Positions 1 through 6,042 of a stretch of 6,250 nucleotides of DNA are shown piece by piece. A program made the position numbers and the translations under genes. Source of the DNA: Eubacteriales Family XIII. Incertae Sedis bacterium. GTDB lineage: Bacteria; Bacillota_A; Clostridia; Peptostreptococcales; Anaerovoracaceae. Under the pieces are notes generated by a model. That model was not told the origin of the DNA and did not search any database. It saw nothing but the letters and a program-made list of their open reading frames with translations. The stretch lies in NCBI GenBank assembly GCA_031278145.1, contig JAITLA010000032.1:1-6250 (forward strand), in the 5' to 3' direction. Within the stretch, counting starts at the first letter, position 1, and every line of letters begins with the position of its first letter.

Positions 1-45
1 ATGGCGGTGGCCGTATGGCGGAAAATCAAGGAGATAACCTATTGA
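1..45 (+). CDS. Possible C-terminal tail of an upstream gene
   Basis: Frame 1 is open from the left edge and ends at a TGA at 43-45, giving a basic tail that finishes ...WRKIKEITY. The stop lies inside the -35 box of the next promoter, a common arrangement at the end of a gene. The stretch is too short to recognise. The first 20 or so bases are GC-rich like the genes in the window, while 25-75 is AT-richer, which fits a gene end running into an intergenic region. Another frame is also open to about 101, so the tail could be chance. Confidence 0.25.
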   Translation: MAVAVWRKIKEITY

Positions 46-70
46 CGTCAACTGTTTTCCCTTATATAAT
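42..70 (+). promoter_or_regulatory. Sigma-A/sigma-70 type promoter for the SLH gene
   Basis: TTGACG at 42-47 and a perfect TATAAT at 65-70 are separated by 17 bases, the ideal spacing for a housekeeping sigma factor. Transcription would begin near 77-78, leaving a leader of about 45 bases before the ATG at 122. The region is AT-richer than the genes around it. This is the only convincing promoter I found in the window, so gene 1 is probably well expressed. Genes 2 and 3 may depend on readthrough from here. Confidence 0.8.
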
Positions 71-121: not shown

Positions 122-1495
122 ATGAACAAGCTCGGTCGTCCATTGTGTATGATCGTACCCGCGGCGGCGTTGTTTCTCCTGCTGTTTTTCGCCGCAAGCC
201 CGCAAGCGGTTTCCGCGGCATCGCCGCCGGAAATCAAGTATTCCCCGCTGTATGAAGCCTCCCTGCGCGATACGATCAGGGAATTCACCGAAAAGGAAAG
301 CGGCGCGTATCACAAACGCATAAACGGCGCGGTGACGGAAACGGCGGTCGCCGCCGACGCCGGGGATACGGAGGCCGCGCCCGAGCCGCAGGTCTTGGCG
401 GCCATTCCCGGCATTCCAAGCGTGCCCAGCGTGCCCAAAATACCCACCGTGCCGACCGTACCGACCGTACCCACCGTACCCACCGTACCGACCGTACCCA
501 CCGTGCCCAGCGTGCCCACGCCGAGCTACACCTCCAGCTACAGCTGCGGGTCCACCTGCGCGGGCAGCAGCACCTGCGCCGGATCGTCCACCTGCGCGGG
601 CAGCAGCACCTGCTTCGGATCATCCACCTGCGCGGGCAGCGGCACCTGCTTCGGTTCATCCACCTGCGCGGGCAGCGGCACCTGCTTCGGATCATCCACC
701 TGCGCGGGCTCCACGACCTGCGCGGGAACAAGCACCTGTGTCGGCATGAGCAGCTGCGCCGGCAGCGGCACCTGCTTTGGCACCGCGACTTGCTCCGGAA
801 CAAGCACCTGCATCGGAACCGCGACCTGTACCGTTGGCAGCAGCTGCGTCAACCCGCAGGATCCGGGCGGCGGTACGGATGAAACGCCGGCCGCAAACGA
901 AACACCGCTGCCGGAAACGCCCAAGGCCGTGAACGACGACACAAAACCGAGCGACTGGGCCCGGGCACAGGTGGATGAAGCCATCGGCGTCGGATTTGTT
1001 CCCGCGGATCTGCAAAGCGACTACCGGAGCAACATAACGCGCAGAGAGTTCTGCGCGCTTGCCATAGGGCTCTTGGAACGGATCCTCGCGGACGATCCCG
1101 CGTTTGCGGATCTTATGGACATCGACTTGGGGGCGAGCCCGTTTACCGATGTGGACGATCCGGCCGTCACCCGGGCGTATTATCTTGAAATCGTGAACGG
1201 CGTGGGGAATGATCGATTCAATCCGGACGGGCAGATCACGCGCCAAGAAGCGGCGAGGCTGCTCACGAATATGTCAGAGAACGTCTTCGGGCTGGACACG
1301 AGCGCCGCGTCCGCGAGCTTCGGCGACGCCGACCGGATCGCCGGCTGGGCAAAGGATTCCGTCGATTTTGTCTGCGAATGCGGCATCATGAGCGGGGTTG
1401 GGAACGGCGCGTTCGCTCCGCTGAATCCGTACACCAGGGAACAGGCCTTCGTGACAATCCTGAGAATGTACAACGCGTTTGCGCTCGGTGAATGA
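122..1495 (+). CDS. Secreted SLH-anchored protein with Val-Pro stalk and cysteine hexapeptide array
   Basis: Protein of 457 aa. Residues 1-32 form a signal peptide: a short basic start, a hydrophobic core at about 11-27, and likely cleavage after ...VSA. Residues 33-94 are a charged, probably helical segment. Residues 95-133 are thirteen [IV]-P-x triplets, likely an extended stalk. Residues 142-242 carry 18 cysteines; the last 17 (C146 to C242) are exactly six residues apart in units like TCAGSS. Residues about 276-322, 338-384 and 398-446 are three SLH repeats with TRRE, TRQE and TREQ motifs, known in this family for binding pyruvylated secondary cell-wall polymer, so the protein should sit on the cell surface. 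Extra cysteines occur in SLH1 (C311) and SLH3 (C418, C420). Export and anchoring are well supported. The function of the cysteine array is unknown; structural, metal-binding, redox or enzymatically modified roles are all open. No catalytic domain is seen. Confidence 0.9.
   Translation: MNKLGRPLCMIVPAAALFLLLFFAASPQAVSAASPPEIKYSPLYEASLRDTIREFTEKESGAYHKRINGAVTETAVAADAGDTEAAPEPQVLAAIPGIPSVPSVPKIPTVPTVPTVPTVPTVPTVPTVPSVPTPSYTSSYSCGSTCAGSSTCAGSSTCAGSSTCFGSSTCAGSGTCFGSSTCAGSGTCFGSSTCAGSTTCAGTSTCVGMSSCAGSGTCFGTATCSGTSTCIGTATCTVGSSCVNPQDPGGGTDETPAANETPLPETPKAVNDDTKPSDWARAQVDEAIGVGFVPADLQSDYRSNITRREFCALAIGLLERILADDPAFADLMDIDLGASPFTDVDDPAVTRAYYLEIVNGVGNDRFNPDGQITRQEAARLLTNMSENVFGLDTSAASASFGDADRIAGWAKDSVDFVCECGIMSGVGNGAFAPLNPYTREQAFVTILRMYNAFALGE
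404..520 (+). repeat. Nine-base tandem repeat encoding a [IV]-P-x stalk
   Basis: Thirteen consecutive codon triplets encode Ile/Val-Pro-(Gly/Ser/Lys/Thr), with seven identical VPT units in the core. At the DNA level the units are variants of GTACCCACC or GTACCGACC, so copies are nearly identical and could slip during replication. Such Pro-rich stretches usually form an extended linker; here it would hold the cysteine array away from the preceding helical segment. It lies in frame inside gene 1. Confidence 0.85.
545..847 (+). repeat. Cysteine hexapeptide repeat array, T-C-x-G-[ST]-x
   Basis: One leading Cys (C142) is followed by C146, 152, 158 and on to 242 without a break in the six-residue spacing. 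The unit is [AFVI]-G-[ST]-x-[ST]-C in nearly all copies; the final units vary most. The phase resembles the left-handed beta-helix hexad ([LIV]-[GAED]-x-x-[STAV]-x), with Cys at the last position. If it folds that way, three hexads make one turn, giving about five turns with three columns of cysteines. The fold is inference; the spacing is read directly. Confidence 0.9.
614..709 (+). repeat. 36-bp higher-order DNA repeat inside the cysteine array
   Basis: Two copies (614-649 and 650-685) differ at a single base, and a third begins at 686 and matches the first for 24 bases. Each encodes two hexads, FGSSTC and AGSGTC, so the array appears to have grown partly by duplication of hexad pairs. A more diverged relative of the same unit lies just before, at 578-613. 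Confidence 0.8.
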
Positions 1496-1571: not shown

Positions 1572-1603
1572 AAAGAGCGCCATGACGGTCGCATGGCTTT
1601 TTT
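1572..1603 (+). terminator. Intrinsic-terminator-like hairpin overlapping the start of gene 2
   Basis: GCCATG (1579-1584) pairs perfectly with CATGGC (1592-1597) around a seven-base loop. The stem is preceded by an A-rich tract and followed by six T's (1598-1603), which can extend the pairing as A-T and G-T pairs after one mismatch. This is the shape of a rho-independent terminator at the end of gene 1. The 3' arm and T-tract are also the first codons of gene 2, an unusual position. The 6-bp core stem is short, so termination may be only partial. Confidence 0.55.
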
Positions 1604-3695
1604 CCTTGTCGCCGTGGCCGTTGTATACGGGCTGCCGGCAAGCATACCGGCCGTACCGCACCGATTCCTTTCGCTTGTCTTTGCGTTGGCGTTCATAGCC
1701 CTCACCGTCCTTGACCTGCGAAAAAAGAACGGCTATTCGCTGTCCCATTCCCATGTCCTTGAAGCCTACATCTTGTCCGTATTCTCGGTCTATCAAGTGC
1801 TGAAAAACGAAAGCGCGCCGTTTTACCTTATCCTCTCGAAGCTGTCGAGCGGCTTTTCCGCGCTCGTCGGCGCGCTGATCGGGAGGCCGATAGCCATGGG
1901 CCCCGGCTACGGCGGCGTGGACACCATCGTCCTTTTCCTGATTGCGCTTATCGCCACCGGCCTCTCCCACAAGCGGCTGTCGCCGAAAACCGGCCTGCTC
2001 TGCCTGTCGGCCGTCCTGTGCATCTGGGGAGCGTACCTCGCCCTTTGGACATATCTCGCGGAATCCTCGCTCAGCTTGGGCCTGAACCTGCTCGAACCGC
2101 TTACGGGTCCCTTGGATTACCGCGCCGCGCTGTTCGCCGCGCTGCTTGCCTTCCATATGCTTGTTTGCGGGAAGCTCGCCCCGCGCGGCGCGGCCGCGAA
2201 GCCCGTGAAGGCGGCGCTGATTTGCCCGGCCGTCCTGTTGGCGCTGTGTGTGGCGACGACGGCCGTATGCGGTCTGTCCACCCGCTTGCCGGCAAAGAAT
2301 CCCGCCGCGCAGGTCGTATTTTTGGATACGGGGATAGACTTCGGCGTTCCTGCGCGCGGCAGGTACGGGCTGGACAATGCGGGGATGTTCGGCGTGCTGC
2401 CGCACTACTTGAACCGGCGGGGGTATCGCTGCCTGACGGTTCGGACCCTGAGCGGGACGCTTCTCGGCGAAACCGACGTTCTGGTCGTTTTCAATCCGAT
2501 GCATGCCCTCGACGAAAGCGCGCTTTCCGAAATATGGCGCTTTGTCGAGGACGGCGGTTCCGTTTTGGCCGTGGGCGATCATACGGGCGGGGAGCAGGTG
2601 CGTCTGCCGCTGAACGCCATCTTGAAGCCGGTCGGCATTTCTTTTAATTTCGACAGCGCCATTCCGTTCAATAGCCTGTGGGCGGACGGTTTTCAGCGCA
2701 GGCGCAGTCCGATTTTCAATGGAATCGACGACGCCCGGATACAAACGGTCGTCGGGGCCTCGCTGGATATCGGATGGAGGGCTCGCCCGCTGATTATCGG
2801 AAAAACGGCTTATTCGGATCTCGGCGATGCGGAAAACACCGCCGACGGCTATCTCGGCGATATGCGGTTTGCCCGCGGCGAAAGGATCGGGGATTTGATT
2901 CTCGCCGCGGAGGCGGCTTACGGCAGCGGGAAATTTATGGCTTTCGGGGATACCACGCCGTTTCAGAACACGGTCATCGCGTACAGCCATCCGTTTGTCG
3001 ACAATATCTTCACGTATCTGGGAGGCGGCGGCAAACGGCGCGAAACCGCGTGGGAGGACGACGGCTTTTTTACGGCCGCCTGCGTGATCGACGCGGGCCG
3101 CATGGAGCTGTTCGCGCGGGACAAGTCCGCGGACGCGGCGGACGGATTGATCGCCTGCCTCATGCGCGCGGGCTTTATGCCTTACGTGACGGGGGACGCG
3201 CCCTTATCGGAGATATCGGAAAAAGAGCCCGATGTAAGGCTCATACTTCTCATGGAGCCCGCCGTCGCCTTTTCGGACGCCGAGCTTGACGCCCTGGAGC
3301 GCTTCATGGACGCGGGCGGGAGCGTCCTCCTGTGCGCGGGCTACGAAAGCCCGGCGGCGAGCCGGGCGCTTGCGGGGTATTTTGGCTTTGCCTTCGATCC
3401 CCTGCCCATCGGAAGGATCGCGCCGGACAAGAACCCGGAAATGGCGTTTTGGAACGCCTGTCCCGTGCTGTACCGGGGCCTCCCGCCGGGAGAAGGCGGG
3501 GACGCGGTCGAAAGCCTTATGGAAATCTGGGGCTACTGCACGATGGCGTATAAGCCCGTCGGCGCGGGCGGCTTGTACGTATTCGCCGATCCGGGTTTCC
3601 TGAAAAACAAGAACCTGGAGAGCGCGGATGCCTACCGGGAAGGGAACGTGCTGTTTTTGGACAAGCTGCTGACGGATATTGCGGAAAGGGGTTGA
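1593..3695 (+). CDS. Seven-helix exosortase-like membrane protein with two extracytoplasmic GATase1-like domains
   Basis: Protein of 700 aa. Hydrophobic segments lie near 2-19, 25-42, 54-70, 109-124, 134-155, 178-193 and 207-228. Basic loops (RKK at 43-45, HKR at 126-128, and 194-206) predict a cytoplasmic N-terminus and put residues 230-700 outside. Domain A (about 238-478) is Rossmann-like: strand ETDVLVVFNP (293-302), VEDGG (318-322), GDHT (328-331), FNFD (351-354) and FGDTTPFQN (451-459). Domain B (about 484-700) repeats the pattern: VRLILLMEP, DAGGSVLL and FADPGFLKN (664-672). This resembles class I glutamine-amidotransferase-like (DUF4350/ThuA-type) folds, but no Cys nucleophile is evident. 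The helical part has exosortase-like order, with GPGYGG (104-109) where exosortases have the catalytic Cys. The ATG at 1593 is chosen because the first 30 residues align without gaps to the start of gene 3; its ribosome binding site is weak. No known family name is recognised. Coupled to gene 3. Confidence 0.8.
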   Translation: MAFFLVAVAVVYGLPASIPAVPHRFLSLVFALAFIALTVLDLRKKNGYSLSHSHVLEAYILSVFSVYQVLKNESAPFYLILSKLSSGFSALVGALIGRPIAMGPGYGGVDTIVLFLIALIATGLSHKRLSPKTGLLCLSAVLCIWGAYLALWTYLAESSLSLGLNLLEPLTGPLDYRAALFAALLAFHMLVCGKLAPRGAAAKPVKAALICPAVLLALCVATTAVCGLSTRLPAKNPAAQVVFLDTGIDFGVPARGRYGLDNAGMFGVLPHYLNRRGYRCLTVRTLSGTLLGETDVLVVFNPMHALDESALSEIWRFVEDGGSVLAVGDHTGGEQVRLPLNAILKPVGISFNFDSAIPFNSLWADGFQRRRSPIFNGIDDARIQTVVGASLDIGWRARPLIIGKTAYSDLGDAENTADGYLGDMRFARGERIGDLILAAEAAYGSGKFMAFGDTTPFQNTVIAYSHPFVDNIFTYLGGGGKRRETAWEDDGFFTAACVIDAGRMELFARDKSADAADGLIACLMRAGFMPYVTGDAPLSEISEKEPDVRLILLMEPAVAFSDAELDALERFMDAGGSVLLCAGYESPAASRALAGYFGFAFDPLPIGRIAPDKNPEMAFWNACPVLYRGLPPGEGGDAVESLMEIWGYCTMAYKPVGAGGLYVFADPGFLKNKNLESADAYREGNVLFLDKLLTDIAERG
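3683..3691 (+). promoter_or_regulatory. Ribosome binding site for gene 3 within the end of gene 2
   Basis: GGAAAGGGG lies in the last codons of gene 2 and ends 11 bases before the ATG at 3703, slightly further than ideal. The gene 2 stop at 3693-3695 falls between this site and the ATG, so ribosomes finishing gene 2 can restart on gene 3. This supports translational coupling and the 3703 start over the in-frame TTG at 3679. Confidence 0.65.
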
Positions 3696-3702
3696 CGGCG
3701 GC

Positions 3703-6042
3703 ATGGATTTTTCTTGGATCGCGGTATTGCTGCTCAGCTTTGCGTGGACGGTCGCCGTTCCCGTTTACGAGCCGCCGTCCTTGGCATGGCTTCTTCCGGC
3801 GGCGGTCGCCGTCGCCTTTGCCTTTGCCGTCTTTTGCGGGCGGGACGGGCGCGGGCGCGCGGAGGCGCTCAAGAACGCCCTGGCTTATTGCGGGCTCGTG
3901 ACGGCGGCGCAAGGAGCGCTCTTCCCCTTTTACTGCGTTTGGGCGGCGAGGCAGCACACCGAATCGGTATTCGTCGCCTTGGCCGGCGCCGTCCTAAGGC
4001 CGTTCGGCGCGCGGACGGTCGTTGAGGGGAATCTGCTGTATGTCGACGCGCCGCTCAAAACGATGACGTTTTCAAGCGCCCCGGAGAAGCTCGGCGCGAT
4101 GTTCCTCCTGCTTTTCATCGCCGGGGGCGTCGTCGCCCTGTTGCTGAAAAAGGCCCGCGTCAAGCACTTCGCCGCTTTTTTCGCCGTCGCGTTTTTTTAC
4201 ACCGTTTTGCGTTACGCCTTCCTGATCATGCTCTATTCCGTCTACGCCCTGCACAGCATCTTTTGGGACAGGGTGTTCACGTTCGTCACCTTCATTCCGC
4301 TTGCGCTCATTTTGGCGGCGATGTTTAAAGGCCTGCCGGCCCCCACGGCGCGGATTTCATTCGCAAAACCGGCAAGATCAAAGGCCATCCTGACCGGAGG
4401 CCTTGCTTTTCTGCTCGTTTTCGCGGGTGTCGCCTTTTTTGGGTTCCGCGATCCCGGCAAGGAAAAGCCGGGACGGGTGCTTGTCGATGAATACCACAGC
4501 GACTGGGAGTGGACGACGGACGTTTACAATGAACAGTGGTTCGGGGAACGCTCGGGGTATAACTATTACTGCTTTTTCAACTATCTGGACAAGTTCTACG
4601 AAACGCGTCGGAATATGCGCGCCATAGACGACGAAACGCTGAAGGACACGGACGTGTTCATCGTGAAAACCCCCACCAAGCCCTTCGAGGCGGAAGAGAT
4701 CGCGCTGCTGACCGCGTATGTGGAGGACGGCGGCGGGCTTTATCTGATAGGCGATCACACCAACGTATTCGGTACCGGGGCGAATCTGAACCAAATCTCG
4801 AAGGCCTTCGGCCTTACCTTCAATTACGATTGCACATACGAGCTCAGGCACGGCAGTTTGTCCGAATACGACGCCCCGCCGCTCATGCCGCATCCCGTGG
4901 TTTCGGATCTGCCGCATTTTCTGTTTGCCACCTCGAATACCTTGGGCGCAAAGTGGCAGGCCGAGGAAATCATCGTCGGGTACGGCTTGAAAGGGCTCGG
5001 GGCCGATTATTCCCAAAAGAATTTCTTCCCCGCCGACACCGAGGCGCCCACGATGGAATTCGGCCTTTTTCTGCAAAGCGCCGGCGTCGGGTACGGAAAA
5101 GGCAGGGTTCTTGCGTTCACGGACAGCACCGTGTTTTCAAACTTTTGGATGTTCATGCCCGGGAAGCCGGAGCTGCTGCTCGGGAGCGTCGCGTGGCTGA
5201 ACAGGGAGAACAGCCTTGTCGGTGTGACGCCGAGAGGGATCGCGACCGCTTTTTTGGTCGTTCTGCTGCTTCTGAACCTGCTGTGGGGCTTCAAGGCCGG
5301 AGCGGCATTCCCCTTGGGGATCTTCGTTTTTGCGGGCTTGGCGGCCTTTGTGATCGGCGCCGGCCTGTTCCATATCGCGGCTTGGGCATCCGCGCGCGCG
5401 CCCGAGCCCATAAAGCCGATGACGGAGATCCGCTTTGAGCGAGAATATTCAAAATACAAGCTGCCGAACGATCTGGACGGCTTTATGTCCGCCGCGGACG
5501 AGCAGTTGAACACCTTTTACGTTTGGACCCAAAGGCTCGATTATTTCCCGCGCGCGGAGGAAGAACTGCTCGACGCCGTGCGAAACGGGGATCTTGCGAT
5601 TCTCGCCAAGCCGGTCCGGGAGATAAAAAATCCGCGGCGGATACTCGACGAGCTCACCGCGGGCGCGCGGCTTCTCGTGCTGGACAATGTCGCGAGCGGC
5701 GCGCATTCAAACGGGCTATTGGCGCTTGCTGGCATGGAGCTGACCGACGCGCGCATTGGGCGATACGCCGATTACGGCGAGATACGGGACATACCCTTGA
5801 CGGCAAACGCGTCCGCAATCACAGGGGGAGAGGTCTTGATTCGCGACGAGGCCGGAAACGCCGTATGCGCGACGGCGCGGATCGGCGAGGGGCTGCTCGC
5901 GGTCTTTTCCGATCCGGATCTGTTTTACAACCGCGAATTGGGCGACGTCAGCGCCAACCTGACGGACAAGACGAAGCTTCTCACCGATACGGAATTCAAA
6001 CTGCTCAGAGCGCTTGTCGAATCAAGGCCGGATGGCGAATGA
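3703..6042 (+). CDS. Exosortase-like membrane protein with two GATase1-like domains, paralogue of gene 2
   Basis: Protein of 779 aa. Hydrophobic segments lie near 5-21, 26-45, 58-78, 131-148, 155-182, 189-208 and 229-248, then a second pair at 513-530 and 535-562. Basic inside loops (RDGRGR 47-52, KKARVK 149-154, 209-228) predict residues 249-512 and 563-779 outside. The N-terminal block follows exosortase order: outward loop VEGN (107-110) and SSAPEKLG (124-131) before a helix, Arg170 in YTVLR, and His184 in YALHSIFWD; the nucleophile position is Ser/Ala, not Cys. Domain A (about 256-500) has DTDVFIV (315-321), VEDGG (340-344), GDHT (350-353), FNYD (373-376) and FTDSTVFSN (472-480). Domain B (about 570-779) has GDLAILAKP, ARLLVLDN and FSDPDLFYN (735-743). 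These motifs match gene 2 position for position, so the two proteins are paralogues likely working together. Catalysis is unproven; a binding or assembly role is equally possible. Confidence 0.8.
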   Translation: MDFSWIAVLLLSFAWTVAVPVYEPPSLAWLLPAAVAVAFAFAVFCGRDGRGRAEALKNALAYCGLVTAAQGALFPFYCVWAARQHTESVFVALAGAVLRPFGARTVVEGNLLYVDAPLKTMTFSSAPEKLGAMFLLLFIAGGVVALLLKKARVKHFAAFFAVAFFYTVLRYAFLIMLYSVYALHSIFWDRVFTFVTFIPLALILAAMFKGLPAPTARISFAKPARSKAILTGGLAFLLVFAGVAFFGFRDPGKEKPGRVLVDEYHSDWEWTTDVYNEQWFGERSGYNYYCFFNYLDKFYETRRNMRAIDDETLKDTDVFIVKTPTKPFEAEEIALLTAYVEDGGGLYLIGDHTNVFGTGANLNQISKAFGLTFNYDCTYELRHGSLSEYDAPPLMPHPVVSDLPHFLFATSNTLGAKWQAEEIIVGYGLKGLGADYSQKNFFPADTEAPTMEFGLFLQSAGVGYGKGRVLAFTDSTVFSNFWMFMPGKPELLLGSVAWLNRENSLVGVTPRGIATAFLVVLLLLNLLWGFKAGAAFPLGIFVFAGLAAFVIGAGLFHIAAWASARAPEPIKPMTEIRFEREYSKYKLPNDLDGFMSAADEQLNTFYVWTQRLDYFPRAEEELLDAVRNGDLAILAKPVREIKNPRRILDELTAGARLLVLDNVASGAHSNGLLALAGMELTDARIGRYADYGEIRDIPLTANASAITGGEVLIRDEAGNAVCATARIGEGLLAVFSDPDLFYNRELGDVSANLTDKTKLLTDTEFKLLRALVESRPDGE

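Follow-up and report, generated by a model that had tools for sequence, protein, structure and literature searches.

Hexapeptide proteins such as LpxA and LpxD are built from a six-residue unit that contains a glycine, and the hexad of the left-handed beta-helix follows the rule [LIV]-G-x-x-[ST]-x. Cysteines at every sixth residue, T-C dipeptides and small residues are found in the beetle antifreeze protein TmAFP (PDB code, 1EZG), of a family with a right-handed, disulfide-bonded beta-helix; its C2–C8 disulfides link residues six apart in 12-residue coils (PMC8038014). Archaeal DUF4350 proteins have been predicted to belong, together with S-layer proteins, to a complex for secretion or membrane remodelling (PMC5898192).

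Here we analyzed a DNA stretch of 6,250 nucleotides (contig JAITLA010000032.1; hereafter the window), which encodes a protein with a ladder of regularly spaced cysteines and, downstream, two membrane proteins, A and B. The ladder shares with TmAFP the six-residue cysteine spacing, the T-C dipeptide and the small residues, but the TCT ice-binding pairs are absent and T stands before both cysteines of the 12-mer; moreover, the ladder proteins are bacterial, carry an SLH anchor, have A and B adjacent and contain up to 230 cysteines in relatives. The six-residue unit with G resembles that of LpxA and LpxD, and their aliphatic residue is matched at C+1 in Clostridia, whereas the invariant residues here are C and T/S, and C+1 is often charged in Zixibacteria. 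A and B contain the same Pfam domains, above or near cut-off, as GldG, DUF4350 (arCOG01314) and GIFT membrane proteins, from which they differ in being paired, in each having N-terminal transmembrane (TM) helices and in being tied to periodic-cysteine proteins. An exported periodic-cysteine protein, a shared N-terminal motif and the A/B pair form a conserved unit.

Structure of the ladder protein gene

The ladder protein gene (122..1495, forward strand, as are all features below) is an ORF of 457 aa read from the ATG at 122, with the Shine-Dalgarno sequence AAAGGAGG at 107–114. The promoter-like TTGACG-17-TATAAT upstream of it (42..70) has 11 of 12 consensus matches and is merely suggestive, since two sites of this quality were observed in the window against 1.7 expected. 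The encoded protein consists, in order, of a probable signal peptide, the motif YSPLYEASLRDTIREF, a proline-rich linker, the ladder and an SLH region. The signal peptide (residues 1–32; 122..217) was predicted from a basic start, a hydrophobic core and an AxA-like end, which supports an earlier proposal, made from the letters of the window and hereafter called the sequence-only reading, that the protein is exported. Sequence comparison showed the motif (residues 40–55; 239..286) to be common to several phyla. The VPT/VPS linker spans 404..523; a tandem repeat of nine bases at 421–519 encodes this stalk, the length of which differs among relatives. The S-layer homology region (944..1486) matched Pfam PF00395 above cut-off in two stretches (E 1.5e-16), thereby bearing out the proposed SLH anchoring at the surface; its third SLH-like unit and its limits were assigned by eye. 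One cysteine outside the ladder, C311 (1052–1054), lies in the first SLH-like unit and is conserved in most SLH relatives.

The ladder proper (557–847) contains 17 cysteines, C146 to C242, separated by 16 intervals of exactly six residues, and is preceded by C142 at a distance of four. When residues 140–245 were shuffled 20,000 times with composition kept, the longest six-spaced run did not exceed 8 (mean 2.3), so that the exact spacing of 17 cysteines in the sequence-only reading is confirmed both by the protein and by the shuffles. The range assigned to it there, 545..847, was correct at its end but began four residues early, at C142. Likewise, the proposed unit [AFVI]-G-[ST]-x-[ST]-C describes most of the 16 units but not all, because two units have S or T at C+1, the last has V at C+2, and two have M or G at C+3. 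At the DNA level the ladder is repetitive with periods of 18 and 36 bp, corresponding to one and two hexads. No Pfam or NCBIfam model covered the window ladder.

Relatives of the ladder protein and their conserved residues

A protein search restricted to the ladder identified eight relatives among 7991 scored candidates. All eight keep the cysteine ladder and seven carry SLH, and no homologue was seen in which the spacing was kept and the cysteines lost. Several relatives begin with four-spaced cysteines (CGATCGATCGSTC) and continue with six-spaced ones. A genome scan yielded 20 loci, 15 of which were accepted: 11 of the clostridial type (L001–L011), three of one Zixibacteria metagenome-assembled genome (MAG) and one of a Deltaproteobacteria MAG. 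The clostridial-type loci are titled mostly as Clostridiales or Syntrophomonadaceae MAGs and one as Clostridiales COT-073; L011, titled Zoogloeaceae but encoding a clostridial-type protein, presumably reflects a binning error. A protein search from the deltaproteobacterial pair gave 15 short relatives of 160–204 aa, one titled Thermodesulfobacteriota, from which the phylum name used here for genome G013 was borrowed. Ladder relatives occur in Clostridia, Zixibacteria and Thermodesulfobacteriota, and the ladder protein is a member of an apparently undescribed multi-phylum family. The Zixibacteria proteins reach 1495 aa with 230 cysteines and 208 intervals of six. An odd number of cysteines was counted by hand in at least four ladders (L001, L004, L005 and L008), and DUF963, a fission-yeast repeat of undescribed function, was matched above cut-off by L009 alone among the 10 relatives scanned.

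T or S directly precedes the cysteine (position C+5) in 202/204 hexads from Clostridia and 1137/1146 from Zixibacteria, and C+2 is G in 193/204 and 807/1146, respectively. At C+1, residues are hydrophobic in 86% of clostridial hexads and never charged, and in Zixibacteria 35% are hydrophobic and 18% charged while C and T/S stay fixed. Large residues occupy C+3 in 32% of Zixibacteria hexads. The motif [ST]P[LI][FY]xx[SA]L was present near the N-terminus of 22 of 23 database proteins, the exception (P0007) beginning inside the ladder; SP[LI][FY] was present in 13 of a set of 15 proteins that includes the window protein, with L011 cut and L013 lacking it. Expansion of a GC-rich 18/36-bp repeat, neutral and functionless, would account for the tandem DNA repeats, but is scarcely credible and already contradicted, because cysteine and T/S are kept while other positions drift in three phyla, and because the ladder is linked to A and B.

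Two further observations concern neighbouring sequences. In a 3.8-kb contig of a Clostridiales Family XIII MAG (L010:3164-3806), a ladder end 96–98% identical to that of the window is followed by a piece of gene B, which represents either an assembly mosaic or a rearrangement in a close relative. Near a Zixibacteria ladder gene, L017:12084-15197 encodes a protein of 1037 aa (start, ILGIDLGPNSLGW) that was judged Cas9-like by eye.

The membrane protein pair A and B

Neither the N-terminal motif nor the downstream membrane pair figured in the sequence-only reading. Protein A (1593..3695; ORF open from 1479, ATG at 1593 preferred) contains N-terminal TM helices, a GIFT/ABC_transp_aux region and DUF4350, and protein B (3703..6042; ORF open from 3679, ATG at 3703 preferred) contains TM helices, a GIFT domain, two more TM helices and DUF4350. 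The Pfam DUF4350 scores were 45.9 bits for A and 48.4 bits for B, against a gathering cut-off of 30.4. Hydropathy indicated six N-terminal TM helices in both window proteins and four to eight in the other A and B proteins; neither A nor B has an invariant cysteine. Profiles of A and B matched the GIFT structures of IFT52 (5fmr). With the GldG equivalog TIGR03521, B scored 12 bits against a threshold of 389.85, and A gave no match. The B profile found 506 proteins at E <= 1e-30 among 7993 scored in the protein database.

Gene A lies directly downstream of the ladder gene at nine of the 11 clostridial-type loci (L001–L008 and L011). The exceptions are L009, whose genome has A and B on a different contig (L081), and the 3.8-kb mosaic L010, which is without a downstream A. 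The pair also occurs near ladder genes in Zixibacteria (L059, L060 and L094) and Thermodesulfobacteriota (L058), with A alone at L059, at the edge of the stretch. Cross-phylum phmmer comparisons gave, among the matches listed, E values from 7e-36 to 4e-103, with A-A and B-B matches far above A-B matches; judged by these sequence comparisons, A and B each form an orthologous group that spans the three phyla. Upstream of the ladder gene, L004:577-7694 encodes a MoxR-type AAA ATPase, a protein O-mannosyltransferase and a family 2 glycosyltransferase, a set absent from the six flank proteins scanned at four other loci. The upstream protein at L009 has glycosyltransferase and kinase domains.

Co-occurrence of the ladder and B

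In a sample of Zixibacteria, nine of the 132 genomes scanned for the ladder and nine of the 129 scanned for B were positive, and the nine genomes were the same; a ladder gene was read in every one of the B carriers. The probability of such a full overlap by chance was 5e-14, or 6e-12 with one ladder genome dropped. Six of the nine genomes have no ladder gene in the stretch around B, which in G678 comprises 2.1 kb; for five of these six, among the matches listed, the ladder lies on contigs different from that of B. In G671, B and one ladder share a contig, about 114 kb apart. In the class of COT-073, B was found in 3 of 391 genomes, all three with a ladder, and the ladder in four, figures subject to ascertainment bias because the class was picked, and its carriers first found, via the ladder. 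The contig of the fourth ladder genome ends inside A.

Periodic-cysteine arrays beside B

Nine B loci were examined in eight genomes of Thermodesulfobacteriota, and a periodic-cysteine protein adjoined B at eight of them; the ninth (G759) ends just past A and thus says nothing on an array. The array is six-spaced in G013, eleven-spaced (CxxTxDPxxxE, rich in Asp and Glu; 89 and 86 cysteines) in G471 and G683, seven-spaced (CPxxxTx; 50, 85 and 153 cysteines) in G682 and G796, and thirteen/fifteen-spaced (89 and 68 cysteines) in G691 and G758. The second G682 locus has a DPALPEC repeat, cut by the contig start. The six-spaced ladder profile found no match in the seven Thermodesulfobacteriota genomes besides G013. 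For nine arrays including that of the window, the share of the two commonest spacings beat the best of 500 shuffles in every case. Among ORFs of at least 150 aa in 32 loci, 27 of 239 were cysteine-periodic by a cut-off of our own, all of them array genes or, once, a reverse-strand shadow, a background that is local and not genomic since the loci were chosen around arrays or B.

Thiol-related proteins near B

In G796 the array is without the motif, which is found (as DSPLFRETL) on a separate 250-aa DsbA-like protein encoded beside B. This protein has an N-terminal hydrophobic anchor and a CVHC sequence, matches Thioredoxin_4 (E 4.8e-23) and DSBA (3e-19), and resembles in its residues 3–49 the N-terminus of a Zixibacteria ladder protein (E 2.4e-4). 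In G682, a protein that begins in the same way, truncated at the end of the contig, is encoded beside B. In all nine Zixibacteria genomes, B is adjoined by a small TM protein with conserved Cys, present as a tandem pair in six; by Pfam it is CcmH-like, seven of eight scanned copies matching at E <= 0.1 and two of eight above cut-off. A tblastn search found neither a DsbA-like nor a CcmH-like protein at the clostridial loci searched, and at those of Thermodesulfobacteriota it likewise gave no CcmH-like protein.

Partners of these types could equally reduce thiols, which bears on the reading that the cysteines are metal or metal-sulfur ligands, so that the arrays would form a surface metal store or electron conduit, with A, B and the thiol proteins keeping the thiols reduced or loading the metal. 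The thiols are dense, regular and tolerant of spacing changes, Asp and Glu abound in the eleven-spaced arrays, and the hosts of the ladder loci are largely of kinds that we take to be anaerobic. However, the window ladder (residues 142–242) contains no His, Asp or Glu, no metal-cluster gene was recognized among the flank proteins scanned (a minority of all flank proteins), and we know of no metal-array structure of such a kind. We regard metal ligation as unlikely. A broader form, which appears quite improbable, would make the periodic-cysteine proteins of several phyla metal-thiolate or redox arrays on the cell surface. In it, A, B and partners of the DsbA/CcmH type would control the state of evenly spaced thiols, numbering dozens to hundreds, and these would convey metal ions or electrons along the protein outside the cell; there the spacing may vary (4, 6, 7, 11, 13/15) because a regular sulfur chain is what counts.

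It is likewise quite unlikely that the motif region serves as the leader, and the repeat as the core, in a post-translational modification of Cys or Thr by thioether formation or S- or O-glycosylation. To the eye the conserved helix is leader-like, the T/S-C pair is nearly invariant in each hexad, a protein O-mannosyltransferase is encoded upstream at one locus (L004), and GIFT domains are proposed sugar binders (PMC7226087). Against this, no radical SAM or lanthionine enzyme was found in 10 clostridial flank proteins scanned at five loci, no RiPP precursor family was present among the NCBIfam matches of the three window proteins and 10 relatives, and the motif also occurs on the DsbA-like protein, which has no array.

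Fold of the ladder

The best PDB sequence match of the window ladder was 1EZG (E 6.6e-4), aligned cysteine on cysteine. With the cysteines fixed and the other residues shuffled, 10 of 1000 shuffles reached this score, so that the match mostly reflects the spacing itself. The TmAFP feature of cysteines six apart is present in the window ladder, but the TCT ice-binding ranks are not, T-C-T occurring at just one of the 17 cysteines. No Pfam model of the insect antifreeze family was among the matches listed for the window protein (E <= 1) or for 10 relatives (E <= 10). A weak match (E 0.14) was obtained to the C-terminal tail of tektin-5 (PDB code, 8i7o), which has a similarly six-spaced C-G-x-x-x-C run but belongs to a eukaryotic sperm microtubule protein and, to our knowledge, shares no further feature with the ladder protein.

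Clostridial ladders have a two-hexad period, seen at C+5 (lag 2 z 4.0, lag 3 z -3.5, lag 1 negative) and for a further three positions (z 3.2 at lag 2 and 0.4 at lag 3), which could be explained by DNA duplication in steps of 36 bp. Zixibacteria ladders do not show it (z -3.8 at lag 2 for three positions; z -0.5 and 0.4 at lag 3). For the clostridial ladders we infer a two-sided, beetle-like solenoid. We think that a beetle-type core could not hold the large C+3 residues of the Zixibacteria ladders, and because array spacings of 7, 11 and 13/15 differ, a single coil geometry cannot serve all. AlphaFold2 modelling with a clostridial-type alignment placed strands on almost all T-C-x triplets, with low confidence (pLDDT 59.7, pTM 0.43), and a more diverse alignment (31 ungapped ladders) gave no structure (pLDDT 36). 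The sequence-only reading had named a confident prediction of disorder, without close packing of the cysteines, as an outcome that would refute it; these low-confidence models, one regular and one structureless, are not such a prediction.

A left-handed beta-helix as proposed in the sequence-only reading, which would stack the cysteines in three columns, in this case facing outward, appears quite unlikely. The clostridial unit fits the hexad rule through its uncharged, largely hydrophobic C+1 and its glycine at C+2, and L009 weakly matched six hexapeptide-transferase models (E 1.4e-3 to 6.4) and Hexapep (E 8.3), all far below cut-off. The proposal is weakened by the charged C+1 of Zixibacteria, by the two-hexad clostridial period and by the beetle antifreeze protein being the nearest solved sequence. 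Hexapep did not match the window protein at E <= 1, no left-handed-helix family model appeared in the Pfam and NCBIfam scans of this protein, and no lag-3 periodicity was detected in either group, although a missing sequence period does not rule out a fold with 18-residue coils. The comparisons lend weak support to both the beetle-antifreeze-like and the left-handed fold. Among the suggestions of the sequence-only reading, we favor the disulfide-stapled spike.

A proposed export and thiol-handling system

We propose that the window encodes a three-gene surface system, in which an SLH-anchored rod with disulfide rungs is served by A and B in export and folding, the motif being a docking tag; we consider this proposal about equally apt to be right or wrong. 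The product of the first gene would be secreted and held at the cell wall by its SLH domains, with the ladder in its middle. Outside the cell, the ladder may fold into a narrow beta-solenoid, in which T-C-x would be the strand and two hexads would make up a 12-residue coil, whose two inward-facing cysteines would pair as a disulfide rung, yielding a stiff rod that probably serves in adhesion or a surface layer. The GIFT/DUF4350 membrane pair would handle periodic-cysteine proteins in export and folding, and the motif [ST]P[LI][FY]xx[SA]L, which follows the signal peptide, would be its docking tag, placed in one genome on a membrane-anchored DsbA-like protein instead. A and B likely bind the motif and help in array export or thiol handling. 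The data show the ladder and its conservation, the motif and the link with A and B; docking, disulfide rungs, the two-hexad coil, the rod shape and the surface role we infer for the predicted ladder rod, and we would extend the scheme to periodic-cysteine surface proteins in general, with export and thiol handling by a dedicated system.

The proposal is favored by the fixed T/S-C, the 1EZG match, the clostridial two-hexad period, the linkage, orthology and co-occurrence of A and B, the periodic-cysteine neighbours of B in Thermodesulfobacteriota, the motif on the DsbA-like protein and the CcmH-like neighbours. It is disfavored by the AlphaFold2 models, the Zixibacteria ladders without the two-hexad period and with 32% large C+3 residues, the varied spacings, the odd cysteine numbers, the shuffles that match the 1EZG score, the about equally weak hexapeptide-transferase match in L009, the tblastn result of no DsbA/CcmH-like protein at the clostridial loci and no CcmH-like one at those of Thermodesulfobacteriota, and the lack of an invariant cysteine in A and B. 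If correct, the proposal would define, across several phyla, a system that builds cysteine-array surface proteins and has a docking motif and thiol-handling partners of its own. It would give DUF4350/GIFT membrane proteins a testable role, perhaps reveal in bacteria a counterpart to the beetle antifreeze fold in which up to 230 cysteines occur, and offer a possible source of very stable protein rods. A full-text literature search, the coverage of which excludes most subscription papers, returned no description of periodic-cysteine arrays or of a link between them and GldG-like membrane pairs.

Seven-spaced cysteine arrays were also found joined with GEVED domains, at L087:7872-10572 and L103:3071-7420, and the product of L087:5702-7099 ends C-terminally in a dockerin domain.
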